From Delftia sp. PS-11 (GTDB lineage Bacteria > Pseudomonadota > Gammaproteobacteria > Burkholderiales > Burkholderiaceae_C): a stretch of 64,000 nucleotides of DNA. The first letter of the stretch is position 1. Every line of letters begins with the position of its first letter. The stretch is taken from positions 74,233 to 138,232 of the forward strand of contig NZ_JACSYA010000013.1 in the NCBI RefSeq assembly GCF_029870285.1, written 5' to 3'. Made by a program: the position numbers and the translations under genes. Positions 45,649-55,708 of the stretch are shown here, one piece after another. A model generated the notes under the pieces. It ran no database searches. It saw only the letters and a program-made list of their open reading frames with translations, and had not been told where the DNA came from.

Positions 45649-46290
45649 CTACCAGCGCAGCAGGCGGGGCCCCAGGCACAGACCGGCTGCCGCGGGGATC
45701 AGTATGCCGAGGAAATACCACAGCCCCCAGAAAGGCACGCCCATCTCAGGGCAGTGCAGGCAATACACCACGGTGGCGATGGAGCCAGCCAGCAAACCGG
45801 CCACTGCGCCGGTCAGGCGCAGCCGGGTCGGCGCCATGGCGCGCACAGCCCAGACGATGGTCACGCACAGAGGCAGCGACAGCAGAGCGATGTTGAACGG
45901 GCAACTGCGCCACGAAAATCCCATCAGCAGAGGCAGGCGTTCGGCCACAGGGGCGCCCGCCAGTACGACCGCACTGGCAATCCATACCGTCAACCCCGGT
46001 GCAGCAATGCCAAGCCAGTTGCGGCCGACACGCAGGCCGGGGCGCAGCAGCCGGCGCAATACCAGCAGCGAGCCTGCCGCCATCGCGGCAGGGAAAGCCA
46101 GCTTGGCCCAGAACAGCGGCACCCCCATCATCAGCGCAAGATCGGCACGCAGCCCATAGATCAGCAACATCAGCGCCAGCGAGCAGGCGCTGCCAAGAGA
46201 CAGGGCCTGCACCATGCGCCGCAGCGGCAGGCGCAGGTCCACTGGCGCCACATTGGTGGACATCATCTCGATCAAATCATCGGTCTTCAT
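45649..46290 (-). CDS. NrsF (DUF1109) anti-sigma factor, second copy
   Basis: A 213-residue, six-helix membrane protein of the NrsF/DUF1109 family, which holds SigF-type ECF sigma factors inactive at the membrane. The family C-terminal segment [31 protein letters not shown] and [15 protein letters not shown] are present. Two conserved cysteines (in SCPFN and HCPEM) match the positions proposed for redox/metal sensing in Caulobacter NrsF. The ATG overlaps the sigF stop (ATGA). A paralogue lies on the other side of sigF. Confidence 0.88.
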
Positions 46291-46943
46291 GGTGAAAGCT
46301 TCTCCCGGATTTTGGCGGCCAGCGCCTTCAGGCCACGGTGCACACCGACCTTCACCGCAGACTCGCTCATGCCGGTCAGTTGAGCGGTTTCCGCCACCGA
46401 CAGCCCTTCCAGCTTGACATGCAGGATGGGCAGGCGCTGGCGGTCGGGCAATTGCTCAAGCAGCGCCCTGACATCGCGCCGGGCCTGCGCAGGCTCATCG
46501 TCGCAGGCGGCAAACAGCTCATGCTCGTCACCCAGCGGATCATTGAAAGCCTCGCGGCGTGCGCGTGCACGCAGGAAATCCATCAGTTTGTAGCGGGCGA
46601 TGGCATGCACCCAGGCCGTCAGCGGCTGGTCGGCGCGGTAGGTGTGGCGCGCGTTATGCACGGCCAGCAGGGTTTCCTGGACAAGATCCTCGACCTCATC
46701 TTGCAGGTGCTGCAGCCGCTTGCGCAGAAAGGCGCGCAGGCGGCTGCTGAGTTCAGACAGAAAGCTGCGGTACGCCACGGCGTCGCCGTCCAGTCCGGCA
46801 AGCAGCAATGCGCGCAGGCGCTCTTCCGCCGGATGCTGCGGCTGCTTGCCCACCGGCGCCACGGGGCGGACAGCGGCATGGCTGCCGTCATCGGACGGAT
46901 CATGAACGAATTCGTTGGCGAACAACGGTTGGCTATTGGTCAT
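46287..46943 (-). CDS. sigF: ECF RNA polymerase sigma factor, SigF type
   Basis: A 218-residue extracytoplasmic-function sigma factor. An unstructured Pro-rich start is followed by region 2 ([42 protein letters not shown], residues about 58-102) and region 4 ([44 protein letters not shown]). Its position between two NrsF paralogues and beside a bufferin operon matches the SigF system of Caulobacter and Cupriavidus, which responds to metals and oxidative agents. The ATG comes 16 bases after the proximal nrsF stop. Confidence 0.92.
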
Positions 46944-46959
46944 GGAGCACGTCCCAGGC

Positions 46960-47610
46960 TCACCAGCGCAGCAATACAGGTGCGCACAGCGCGCCCACAA
47001 GCGCCGGAGCCAGCACCCCCAGCACATACCAGACGCCCCAGAACGGCGGCGCCATTTCCGCACAGTACAGTGAATACACTAGCACGCCCTGCGCGCCTGC
47101 CACCAGGCCGGCCATGGCACCGGCCTCAGCCAGCCGGGTTGGCGCCAGACCGCGCATGAACCAGAACATGGCGGCCAGCGTCGGCAGCGACAGCAGGGCG
47201 ATGTTGCCCGAGCAGACCTCCCAGGTGCTGCCCAGCAGCAGTTGCAGCCGCTGCGACGGCGGCGCCAGCGCCAGCCACACGGCTCCCGCCAGCCACAGTG
47301 CCAAAAGGGACAGCAGCAGCGCGGCTGCCGGCCTCGTGCCGATGCGCGCACCCGGGCGCGCCAGGCGGGCGGCGCCAGTCTGCGCAGCCAGCAGCACTGC
47401 AAGCGGAAACGACACTTTCAGCCAGAACAGCGGCTGCTGCAGCAACTGCGGCATGTCGCTGCGCACGCCATAGATCACGGCCAGCAGCAGCGCCGAGCCC
47501 ACCATGCCCGAGGCCAGCGCCATCTCCATGCGCGCACCGGTGGCTGCATGCCGGCCAGCCATGCCATCAGTGCCTGCCGCCAGCATATCGACCAGCTCCA
47601 TCGTCTTCAT
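46960..47610 (-). CDS. nrsF: NrsF (DUF1109) anti-sigma factor, first copy
   Basis: A 216-residue membrane protein of the NrsF family, first gene of the sigma operon. Family marks are the short cytoplasmic start [13 protein letters not shown], six hydrophobic helices, [31 protein letters not shown] and [15 protein letters not shown]. The Cys pair (in EVCSGNI and YCAEM) is kept. Its ATG has an AAAGGAGA ribosome site. Open frame continues upstream with a GTG at 47667 that would add a (Cys-Gly-Cys-Lys)3-like tail encoded by 12-bp repeats, but that GTG lies upstream of the predicted transcript start. Confidence 0.88.
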
Positions 47611-47623
47611 CGGGTCTCCTTTG

Positions 47624-47659
47624 TTGCAGCCGCACTTGCAGCCGCACTTGCAGCCGCAC
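47624..47659 (-). repeat. Three perfect 12-bp tandem repeats in the nrsF leader
   Basis: TTGCAGCCGCAC is repeated three times head-to-tail (read GTGCGGCTGCAA on the transcribed strand) between the SigF-type promoter and the nrsF ATG. It makes up most of the predicted leader. The repeats could affect translation, or expand and contract. Confidence 0.85.
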
Positions 47660-47670
47660 CTTCTCACCTA

Positions 47671-51837: not shown

Positions 51838-52038
51838 TGGTGCGAAGATCAGCGATCCATCTCGGGCATGCCAGCAGGCACTATGCAAACCTCTTGCGCA
51901 TCTGGAATCTCCCTTGCTGGAGGCTCACGAAAACCAGGGTGATGGCGCTTTCAGCGCTGGTCACCACGCTGAATCAAACGAGTGCTCGCGCAGTACTCTG
52001 CGGCTGCGCGGCATCAGATCACCCAGGCTACCTGCGCC

Positions 52039-52698
52039 TCACAGCGAGGACTCCAGCAATAGTTCGCTGATCTCGTCGCTCCGCTCAAACAGCACAGGAA
52101 ACCGCTCCATGAATGCCTCATAACGGGGCCATCGTCCAGACTCGACCAGTCCCTTCATCAGTTCATCAGTTTTTGCCCCGACCACTTCCACACGTGTCCC
52201 ATCAGGAAACTGATAGGGCTCAGCCTGTAGTGGCTTGAAGTTCAAGCCGAAGAAGCGCCGCAGCATCGGCGTATAACTGGGCTCCTGAACCAAGTAAACG
52301 GCTTTGATATTGTTGTACAGCACGTACTGGCAAAACATCTGGAATAGCAGTTCAACGGCTTCCAGGGAAGACTCTCGACTGAGGGCTGGATGAACAACGC
52401 GGCGAGAAAGCTCGACTCCATAATGGCGCTCAAGCTGCAGGTATGAATCGTCATGCAGGCAAGCACGGAAATCCTTGTCCAGCATATATCCAGAGGCGCC
52501 ATTCCCCCGGAGCGCACGCATGTAGGCGATCAACCGACCATTATGTTCCACACCCATATGCAGCGCGGCATCATCGTAGCCGTCGAGTTCGAGGCCCTGT
52601 TCGTTGCAAGGCACCCACCCTTTCTCGACAGCAAAAAACTGATGCCTCAGCCGGGCTGCCTGCTCCAGCAGGAGTCGGTTAACAATGACAGGTTTCAT
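52039..52698 (-). CDS. LuxI-like acyl-homoserine-lactone synthase homologue
   Basis: A 219-residue protein in the GNAT-like autoinducer-synthase fold. The LuxI signature residues appear in order and at matching spacing: Arg18 and Phe22 (RLRHQFF), Trp28, Glu37, Asp39 and Asp42 (LELDGYDD), Arg61 (AYMRAL), Phe77, and Glu96 and Arg99 (VELSRR). It would join an acyl chain to SAM or an amino acid. Its ATG overlaps the stop of the desaturase gene (ATGA). Base composition is clearly lower in GC than its neighbours, indicating transfer. An N-acyl amino acid synthase of the FeeM type is the main alternative. Confidence 0.7.
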   Translation of the reverse strand: MKPVIVNRLLLEQAARLRHQFFAVEKGWVPCNEQGLELDGYDDAALHMGVEHNGRLIAYMRALRGNGASGYMLDKDFRACLHDDSYLQLERHYGVELSRRVVHPALSRESSLEAVELLFQMFCQYVLYNNIKAVYLVQEPSYTPMLRRFFGLNFKPLQAEPYQFPDGTRVEVVGAKTDELMKGLVESGRWPRYEAFMERFPVLFERSDEISELLLESSL

Positions 52699-53669
52699 AA
52701 TTTTTCGAGTTCTTTCCAAGTAAGCATTCGCTGATTTCGTTCATCCCAGACAGCCAATCCATAACAGGATCTCAAGGCCGATGGAGAAGGCTTTAACAGA
52801 GGGCCCTGATGAAACCCAGGGAAGTCCTTCCACACTTCAGGCAGGCGATAAAAAGGAATCGCCTCGTGATAGTGATGAATGGCGTGATAACCAATGTTTG
52901 CAAGGCAGGTATGTCCCCAGGCTGGCAAGTCCAGTTGAGACGAGCATTCCAGTGGTGCTGGCTCACCGCGTCGGGCGCGTTGCTTTTGGTAGATGACTGA
53001 CGGGAAATTGTGCTGAACATAAAAAAGCACAGAGCCGATAAAAGAAGCCAAGGCCAACGGCAGAAAAAATGCGCGAAACCAAGGCCAGAAGGCATGGCAT
53101 GACAGGGCCAATGCAAGGATCGAACCATGCAGCATCAGGCAGACGGCTGCATCCCAATGGATGCGTGGCCGACGCATCAAGGGCAAAATCACCATACCAA
53201 AGCAGAACACTGTGACCAGGCCCAGCAGTGCATTGGCAGGATGGCGGATCCAGCGATAGGCTATTTTTTCAAGGACAGAACTGCGTCTCCACTGCCGCGT
53301 AGTCCATACGGGGAACGAGCCAATATGGGCACTTCGATAAATGCCTGTTCTGCGGTGATGGTAGGTATGGCTTTGCCGCCAAACGCTCAGGGGAGAGAGC
53401 AGTATCAGTCCAACCCACCAGAAGATAGCACTGGCAAATCGCGACCTTCTCAGAAAAGCACCGTGGACATGGTCATGAAAAATGACGAACAAGCGAACCG
53501 AGGCAAACCCTGCTGCAAGCGCCATCAGGTTGGCAGCAGGATTGTCCAGCAAAGCAGCCAGTGCACTGAATGTGGCAGTCACTGCCACTGTTGCCAAAAG
53601 TTCGCGCCATGACCGATGCAAATCCTCCTGGGTATATCGTTTTAGTTCTTTTCGAGATGGCAGTTGCAT
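52695..53669 (-). CDS. Membrane fatty-acid desaturase
   Basis: A 324-residue integral membrane di-iron desaturase. The three His boxes are intact: HDHVHG, HTYHH and HAIHHYHE, with pairs of membrane helices between them (ATVAVTATFSALAAL, FWWVGLILLSPLSVW, AFFLPLALASFIGSVLF). These enzymes introduce cis double bonds into acyl lipids or acyl carriers. It is first of a two-gene, overlapping unit with the LuxI-like synthase, so it probably makes an unsaturated acyl chain for the signal. Composition is AT-rich relative to the window. Confidence 0.88.
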   Translation of the reverse strand: MQLPSRKELKRYTQEDLHRSWRELLATVAVTATFSALAALLDNPAANLMALAAGFASVRLFVIFHDHVHGAFLRRSRFASAIFWWVGLILLSPLSVWRQSHTYHHRRTGIYRSAHIGSFPVWTTRQWRRSSVLEKIAYRWIRHPANALLGLVTVFCFGMVILPLMRRPRIHWDAAVCLMLHGSILALALSCHAFWPWFRAFFLPLALASFIGSVLFYVQHNFPSVIYQKQRARRGEPAPLECSSQLDLPAWGHTCLANIGYHAIHHYHEAIPFYRLPEVWKDFPGFHQGPLLKPSPSALRSCYGLAVWDERNQRMLTWKELEKL

Positions 53670-53750
53670 CGGATCACGGTTATGAAATGGCTCGATCCTG
53701 GGAAAGACGGGCCAGAATATGGAACAAAGGAATACGTTAGGGCGCTGCAA

Positions 53751-53781
53751 CAGGCGCCACTGCGTGAACACATGGCGCCTG
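53751..53781 (-). terminator. Stem-loop after glmS, terminator-like
   Basis: CAGGCGCCA and TGGCGCCTG (9 bp) flank a 13-base loop, starting 8 bases past the glmS stop on the minus strand. No T-run follows, so termination would be inefficient. Confidence 0.4.
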
Positions 53782-53788
53782 CCCGGCC

Positions 53789-55708
53789 TCACTCCACCGT
53801 CACGCTCTTGGCCAGGTTGCGCGGCTTGTCCACGTCGGTACCGCGTGCGCAGGCGGTGTGATAGGCCAGCAGTTGCAGGGGCACCACATGCAGGATGGGG
53901 CTCAGGGCGCCATAGTTCTCGGGCATGCGGATGACGTGCACGCCCTCGCTGCTGTCGATGTTGGTCTTGGCATCGGCCAGCACATAGAGCACGCCGCCGC
54001 GCGCGCGCACTTCCTGCATGTTGCTCTTGAGCTTTTCCAGCAGTTCGTCGTTGGGCGCCACCGTGACCACGGGCATGGCGCTGTCCACCAGGGCCAGCGG
54101 GCCATGCTTGAGCTCGCCTGCCGGGTAGGCCTCGGCGTGGATGTAGCTGATTTCCTTGAGCTTGAGCGCGCCTTCCAGGGCAATCGGATAGTGGATGCCC
54201 CGGCCCAGGAACAGTGCGTTCTCGCGCTTGGCAAAGTCCTCGGACCAGTTGATGATCTGCGGCTCCAGCGCCAGCACCGATTGCAGGGCCACCGGCAGGT
54301 GGCGCATGGCGGCCAGGTACTGCTGCTCCTTGTCCTCGGGCAGACGGCCCTTGGACTGGGCCAGCGCCAGGGTCAGCAGGAACAGGCCGGCCAGCTGGGT
54401 GGTGAACGCCTTGGTCGAGGCCACGCCGATCTCGACACCGGCGCGCGTGATGTAGGCCAGTTCGCACTCGCGCACCATCGCGCTGGTGCCCACATTGCAG
54501 ATGGTCAGCGTATGCGCCATGCCCAGGCTCTGGGCGTGGCGCAGCGCGGCCAGCGTGTCGGCTGTCTCGCCCGACTGGCTGATGGTGACGACCAGGGTGC
54601 GGGGGTCAGGCACGCTGGTGCGGTAGCGGTATTCGCTGGCCACTTCCACGTTGCAGGGCAGGCCGGCCAGGGACTCGATCCAGTACTTGGCCGTGCAGCC
54701 GCTGTAGTAGCTGGTGCCGCAGGCCAGGATCAGCACGCGGTCGATTTCCTTGAACACGCGCCAGGCCGCCGTGCCGGCCTTGCCATCGGCGCCCACGCCA
54801 TCGAACAGTTCAGGCACGATGGACTGCAGGCCTTCCAGCGTATCGGCAATGGCGCGCGGCTGCTCGAAGATTTCCTTTTGCATGTAATGGCGGTACGGGC
54901 CCAGCTCGGCCGCGCCGCTGTGGGCGCGGACGGTGCGCACGGGGCGCTGCCCGGCCGTCAGGCGCGCGCCGCCCTTGCCCATGATCCAGTAGCGGCCCGG
55001 CTGCAGATCCACGATGTCGCCTTCTTCCAGGTAGACGATCTGGTCAGTAACGCCTGCCAGGGCCATGGCATCGCTGGCCAGGAAATGCTCGCCGCCATCC
55101 TGGCCCACACCCAGGATCAGGGGAGAACCGGCACGCGCGCCCACCACACGGCTGGGCTCGTCCTTGTGCATGACAGCGATGGCAAAGGCGCCATGCAGGC
55201 GCGCCGTGGCGGCCTGCACGGCCTCGAACAGGTCGCCGCCGTACAGGCTGTCCACCAGATGGGCGATGACTTCGGTATCGGTCTGGCTGGAGAACACATA
55301 GCCACGGGCCTGCAGCTCGGCACGCAGCGCCTCGTAGTTCTCGATGATGCCGTTGTGCACCAGCGCCACACGGGCCGGCTGGTCAGTATCGGCAGCAGGC
55401 GCCACGCCCGGGCCATGGCTGAAGTGGGGGTGCGCATTGCGCACGGCCGGTTCGCCATGCGTGGCCCAGCGCGTGTGGGCGATGCCCGTATGGCCCGTCA
55501 CATGGTCCTGGGCCACCTGGGCCATGAGCTCGGCCACGCGCGCGGTCGAGCGGGTGCGGCGCAGGCCCAGGCTGTGCACGCCCTGGGCATCCAGCGCCTG
55601 CACGGCCACGCCGCAGGAGTCATAGCCTCGGTACTCCAGACGCTGCAGACCCTGGACAAGGACGGGAACGATATCGCGGTGAGAGACCGCAGCGACGATG
55701 CCACACAT
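53789..55708 (-). CDS. glmS: Glutamine-fructose-6-phosphate aminotransferase
   Basis: A 639-residue two-domain enzyme. The catalytic Cys must follow the initiating Met ([31 protein letters not shown]), so the ATG at 55708 is the start although open frame continues two codons upstream. The glutaminase domain is followed by two SIS isomerase domains ([32 protein letters not shown] type segments, and the C-terminal KSVTVE). GlmS makes glucosamine-6-phosphate for cell-wall precursors; GlmU later in the window acts in the same pathway. The C-terminal coding sequence is the attTn7 recognition site of TnsD. Confidence 0.97.

Follow-up and report, generated by a model that had tools for sequence, protein, structure and literature searches.

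The locus described here raises the question of whether two adjoining genes can together modify a fatty acyl chain and attach it to an amine. The locus lies in a 64,000-nucleotide stretch of the genome of Delftia sp. PS-11 (contig NZ_JACSYA010000013.1, positions 74,233 to 138,232), which we call the window, where a gene for a membrane fatty-acid desaturase (P0002) overlaps a gene for a LuxI-like acyl synthase (P0001) (Table 1). The pair is real and rare, it was probably acquired, and its synthase belongs to a clade of its own. On balance, we lean slightly toward reading it as an acquired cassette that would make an N-acyl compound with a desaturated chain. The LuxI-fold protein would transfer an acyl chain from acyl carrier protein or coenzyme A (CoA) to an amine, giving an N-acyl compound, and the co-translated membrane desaturase would add a double bond, either before transfer (on a lipid or on CoA) or on the finished amide. 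Acyl transfer is predicted from the fold and residues of the synthase and desaturation from the histidine boxes of its partner; from the gene overlap and co-transfer we infer a shared pathway, and co-translation and the order of steps are inferred as well.

Table 1. Features of the desaturase-synthase locus, in window coordinates
Feature	Position	Strand	Basis
LuxI-like acyl synthase P0001, 219 amino acids	52698-52039	minus	overlapping pair of open reading frames
Membrane fatty-acid desaturase P0002, 324 amino acids	53669-52695	minus	Pfam FA_desaturase
ATGA overlap, desaturase stop and synthase start	52695..52698	minus	sequence
Trp28, LuxI tryptophan position, synthase	52615..52617	minus	residue alignment
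Glu96 of ELSRR motif, synthase	52411..52413	minus	E96 in 49/49 rows
His box 1, HDHVH, desaturase residues 65-69	53463..53477	minus	H65, D66 and H69 invariant in 10 rows of alignment A3
His box 2, HTYHH, desaturase residues 101-105	53355..53369	minus	H101, H104 and H105 invariant in 10 rows of A3
His box 3, HAIHH, desaturase residues 262-266	52872..52886	minus	H262, H265 and H266 invariant in 10 rows of A3
Low-GC stretch with the pair alone, glmS to chemotaxis receptor gene	51838..53788		GC content and relatives; likely acquired insert

An overlapping gene pair in a low-GC stretch

The desaturase gene ends in ...TTATGA and the synthase gene begins with ATGAAACCT, so that the two overlap by ATGA; the overlap and the coordinates given in an earlier sequence-only reading of this DNA are exact. 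That reading also called the two genes fused, which does not hold, as they are separate open reading frames (ORFs) with a stop/start overlap; a single fusion polypeptide is ruled out. Both starts agree with those of close homologues, MKPVIV or MQPAV.. in the synthases P0003, P0004 and P0006 and MQLPSRK.. in the desaturases P0014 to P0016.

The GC content (guanine plus cytosine) of the desaturase and synthase genes is 51.9% and 54.2%, compared with 67.4% for glmS and 67.0% for the window, and at third codon positions it is 52% and 61%, against 86% for glmS. In a scan of the window in 50-base steps, no other 1,830 bases have a GC content as low as 51901-53730. Downstream of glmS and on its strand, the desaturase begins after a gap of 119 bases, and the 3' end of the synthase faces a convergent chemotaxis receptor gene. 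We searched 41 genomes of the same genus, 40 of which (our own included) contain glmS; 30 loci were returned, 29 of them from relatives. None of the 29 contains the desaturase, the synthase or that chemotaxis receptor gene within a 1.5-kb flank (less at contig ends); all 29 retain the Lrp-type gene upstream of glmS. The same three genes are also absent from 10 wider stretches taken from ten of these genomes, one of which (L079) stops 0.9 kb past glmS. Because the genes are low in GC and missing after glmS in the 29 same-genus loci, their sequences indicate that the pair was probably acquired horizontally. Six same-genus relatives (L078, L080, L081 and L083 to L085) have different ORFs in the stretch just after glmS (window 53670-53788), which may be a site of repeated insertion.

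A repeat scan for transposon-like ends returned two inverted pairs and six families of short direct repeats. The pair is surrounded by one direct repeat of 12 identical bases (51860-51871 and 53917-53928, the second copy inside glmS); it is indistinguishable from chance and is possibly an insertion trace, possibly coincidence. No promoter-like sites were found, and the one terminator-like site (2.3 expected) is within the desaturase gene, on the plus strand. The window has no tRNA or Rfam match. Elsewhere in it, at 46287-47667, the called ORF for an extracytoplasmic function-type sigma factor overlaps that called for an NrsF-type negative regulator.

Desaturase and synthase compared with known families

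The desaturase is recognized by Pfam FA_desaturase (PF00487) with 85 bits (cut-off, 29.7; E 9.3e-24), and by the NCBIfam DesA delta-5 desaturase model NF052548 with 113.3 bits over residues 6-320, below the cut-off of 500. Together with the PF00487 match, the invariance of the box histidines in 10/10 alignment rows confirms the three-His-box desaturase of the sequence-only reading; H220 is likewise invariant in 10/10 rows of A3. The AlphaFold2 model of P0002 (predicted local distance difference test score, 79.9) has two PDB matches at E<=0.001, both chains of chloroplast Orf2971/Ycf2-FtsHi complexes and uninformative on substrate. Our genome has three FA_desaturase matches, P0002 included. Among the best 120 of 484 protein matches, six exceed 50% identity (99, 70, 66, 66, 53 and 51%), and the others have at most 42%.

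Profile matches of the synthase are spread over several families. P0001 scores 24.9 bits with Pfam Autoind_synth (PF00765), just above the cut-off of 24, and matches Acetyltransf_5 (E 2.4e-8). Two NCBIfam models of TraI-type acyl-homoserine lactone (AHL) synthases reach 19-22 bits against cut-offs of 250-292, and TIGR03694, for the acyltransferase associated with PEP-CTERM and exosortase, reaches 40.6 bits, below its cut-off of 111.95. NCBIfam OlsB is not listed for P0001, the HMMER filters dropping most weak matches. The sequence-only reading had proposed a comparison with the Autoind_synth and FeeM models, and the outcome is divided, as Pfam FeeM (PF21926) matches relatives and is not listed for P0001 itself, yet it is precomputed for its 99% copy P0003.

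Protein searches with the synthase gave 10 matches among 613 candidates and 17 among the 8,000 candidates scored in a larger set. We define the synthase family as P0001 plus 15 of these matches; P0138 is labelled as coming from a metagenome-assembled genome (MAG) of Myxococcota. Before the tree was built, P0003 and the 119-amino-acid fragment P0140 were removed and P0012 was retained as an intermediate. Among the 16 family rows, TIGR03694 matches 14 (best E 1.7e-10), FeeM 10 and Autoind_synth 9 (both at E<=0.01), and OlsB a single one, weakly (E 0.0023).

The predicted fold is that of an acyl-transferring synthase. Its top matches are the AHL synthases LasI, RpaI and BjaI, so a likeness to LasI, one of the two structures (with TofI) that the sequence-only reading had named for comparison, is among the strongest; FeeM is close behind. 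Among viral structures, the best match (E 4.5e-8) was the AHL synthetase of a Roseobacter phage. Alignment also bears out that P0001 retains all ten residues that we take, following the sequence-only reading, to mark LuxI proteins: R18, F22, W28, E37, D39, D42, R61, F77, E96 and R99. Trp28 occurs in 16/16 family rows, 8/8 LuxI rows, 4/5 intermediates, 3/10 exosortase-type rows and 0/10 OlsB-type rows, and Phe77 in 15/16, 8/8, 3/5, 0/10 and 10/10, respectively. Other residues are peculiar to the family: R100 is present in 16/16 family rows and 0/33 others, and Q138 in 16/16 and in 1/33 others, a TraI row. Within the family, P0136 has E in place of D42, and P0006, possibly a decaying copy, lacks F22, F77 and R99 and keeps the other seven of the ten positions. 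The residues lean to LuxI; contrary to this lean, FeeM matches more of the family rows than Autoind_synth does.

For the tree, we removed reference loci that were near copies of L004 (L005-L007), represented our own gene (L009 and L036), were short (L031) or had no frame matching the family profile (L027 and L028). Among the exosortase-type and OlsB-type rows, the TIGR03694 cut-off is exceeded by L011, L033 and L045, whereas L046 matches OlsB below its cut-off; the remainder were labelled by likeness. In the resulting 49-row tree, the 16 synthase-family rows form one clade (support, 100/100; stem, 1.24). The eight LuxI rows are separate (100/99), with the qualification that four of them are partial PDB stretches and that the RpaI, EsaI and FeeM sequences are not in the tree. 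The ten OlsB-like rows are also separate (100/100), and the ten exosortase-type rows cluster with two intermediates (100/97). Long branches are seen for L030 and L010 and odd composition for P0139, L008 and L030. Constraining the family together with another group gave approximately unbiased (AU) test p values of 0.136 for LuxI, 0.335 for OlsB and 0.0504 for the exosortase type, so that the tree allows LuxI or OlsB as nearest kin of the family and, as a borderline case, the exosortase type. Profile-profile comparison ranks LuxI (four rows) first at 8e-16, followed by the exosortase type (2e-14) and the OlsB type (2e-9). The synthase clade has a place intermediate between enzymes that make signals and enzymes that make lipids. 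The claim of a LuxI-like synthase is supported as to the acyl-transferring fold and the LuxI residues, but a strict LuxI or AHL synthase is not supported, given the separate clade, the scores far below the TraI-model cut-offs and a genome without a match to PF03472, the autoinducer-binding domain.

The N-acyl product can be read in two versions. In the first, P0001 is a true AHL synthase that uses S-adenosylmethionine (SAM) as acceptor, and the pair yields an unsaturated AHL quorum signal perceived by a non-LuxR or foreign receptor. The LuxI-like W28, F77 and motifs (ML-x3-F and ELSR), the top fold matches, the best profile-profile match and the AU value for a joint LuxI clade all favor this version, which we nevertheless consider unlikely. 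In the second, which we rate as somewhat improbable, P0001 belongs with enzymes such as FeeM and OlsB and makes an N-acyl amino acid or an aminolipid; this product would serve as a membrane lipid or surfactant rather than as a signal, and would be desaturated as other lipids are. The FeeM and TIGR03694 matches in the family, the precomputed FeeM match of P0003 and the AU value for a single clade with OlsB agree with it, but FeeM is not listed for P0001, W28 and F77 occur together in 0/20 exosortase-type and OlsB-type rows, the joint clade with the exosortase type is borderline, and the exosortase profile PF09721 has no match in our genome (as a control, it is positive in 1/14 control genomes, that of M. 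jannaschii).

Linkage of the two genes

Synthases of this kind are scarce among relatives. In the host group, 7/61 genomes match at E<=0.001, strongly in our own genome only; the other six have E values of 8e-5 to 6e-4 and 31-36% identity across part of the query. Among 399 genomes of the family, searched with a ten-row synthase-family alignment that recovers our own gene at 7e-115, six match at E<=1e-6, again with our own alone strong and the next at 2e-8. P0001 had no match in the genome contig collection, where the synthase alignment A2 found one 28% locus, in the Bacillota MAG L008, and the viral contig search gave no match. Among plasmids, P0001 found one 27% AHL synthase, the synthase P0005 one 30% match and P0002, at 1e-40, none. 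A search aimed at the desaturase of Sphingomonas elodea, with P0017, gave at best 31.5% among the best 10 of 165 plasmid records and, against 398 genomes of the phylum at 1e-40, only 35-37% matches besides our own.

The L008 protein is worth recording in its own right. It is LuxI-like (L008:9932-10624; Autoind_synth, 68.8 bits; FeeM, 27.9), its contig is labelled as a Bacillota MAG (UBA8346), and it pairs weakly with L002 in the tree (90/65). To our knowledge, LuxI-like synthases are unusual in Bacillota.

The synthase P0005 (60% identity) and the desaturase P0018 (51%) have the same sources and an equal longest contig of 4,642 bases, probably a single contig, so that the pair probably exists in a second lineage. 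Other desaturases weigh against a dedicated pair. In another genus of the same taxonomic family, two genomes (G326 and G388; loci L018 and L019) contain desaturases of 67% and 65% identity at ordinary GC, with no synthase recognizable among the adjoining ORFs and none in either genome at E<=0.1, in a search without a positive control of its own. The L018 and L019 desaturases lie downstream of an ORF that is NUDIX-like as judged by eye, with further ORFs between in L019. No synthase match has a longest contig of the length given for the Curvibacter sp. RS43 or Sphingomonas elodea desaturases, in a comparison of limited sensitivity covering the longest contig only. The linkage is therefore partial. 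The dedicated desaturase of the sequence-only reading, and the wider occurrence of the pair that it proposed to look for, keep the overlapping genes and one probable further linked lineage in their favor, and are weakened by the two genomes with 65-67% desaturases and no synthase match.

These desaturases without a synthase also agree with an alternative in which the genes merely travel together and P0002 acts on membrane phospholipids, as membrane desaturases commonly do, independently of the synthase. We consider this rather unlikely, in view of the ATGA overlap, the shared composition, the two-gene low-GC stretch and the probable second lineage.

Acceptor, receptor and known systems

Returning to the cassette for a desaturated N-acyl compound, and granting an N-acyl product, an amino acid or another amine would be the likelier acceptor, with SAM, which would lead to an AHL, a little short of an even prospect. 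A quorum signal is a possible product. The sequence-only reading had seen no LuxR homologue in the window, and this observation extends to the whole genome, which has 5.44 Mb in 80 contigs at a completeness of 100 and where the autoinducer-binding domain PF03472 has no match at E<=0.001 (the control was positive in 1/14 genomes, that of E. coli). A cognate LuxR in the genome is usual for LuxI, although not universal.

Comparison with known systems gives likenesses in each direction. P0001 resembles LuxI-type synthases (LasI, RpaI, BjaI) in predicted fold, length and the nearly equal spacing of the ten residues, but its family has a separate clade with the invariant R100 and Q138, and its genome lacks PF03472. 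With FeeM and the exosortase-associated enzymes it shares the predicted fold, the R, E, D, D, R, E and R positions and weak profile matches, while it differs in having both W28 and F77, in scoring far below the TIGR03694 cut-off and in a genome without an exosortase. OlsB-like ornithine acyltransferases have the same Acetyltransf_5 domain, F22 and F77, and a common clade is compatible with the tree; however, in all ten OlsB-like rows A or V replaces the Trp and G-R stands for S-R-R, and our genome has one OlsB-like gene (L046), separate from P0001.

Chain-modifying genes next to synthase genes have precedents. In Mesorhizobium japonicum, a crotonase-superfamily gene lies 8 bases from the LuxI gene and is reported to take part in the synthesis of a di-unsaturated AHL (PMC10470506). 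This R1-I1-crotonase circuit resembles our pair in that the synthase gene adjoins a probable chain-modifier gene and in its unsaturated product, but its modifier is not a membrane desaturase and it has its own LuxR. In the planctomycete Stieleria, the stieleriacine cluster is reported to combine a putative desaturase with four N-acyl amino acid synthases, also putative (PMC7293339); it is a large cluster with a PEP-CTERM protein gene, unlike an overlapping two-gene unit. A third study supposes that desaturases act on its unsaturated AHLs, in a passage that names no desaturase gene (PMC5479921). A desaturase-LuxI pair is not reported in the titles or abstract openings of the literature searched, full texts being mostly outside that scope.

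Neither unsaturated AHLs nor N-acyl amino acids are new in themselves. That the synthases represent a fourth LuxI-fold branch, next to LuxI, the FeeM/exosortase type and OlsB, which travels with its own membrane desaturase and makes unsaturated N-acyl signals of a novel class for a non-LuxR receptor, is a doubtful proposal. If the two genes are translationally coupled, one mobile pair would offer a cell a simple route to a new lipid or signal, and the acceptor of the synthase, once found, would reveal the residues that distinguish enzymes using SAM from those using amino acids.
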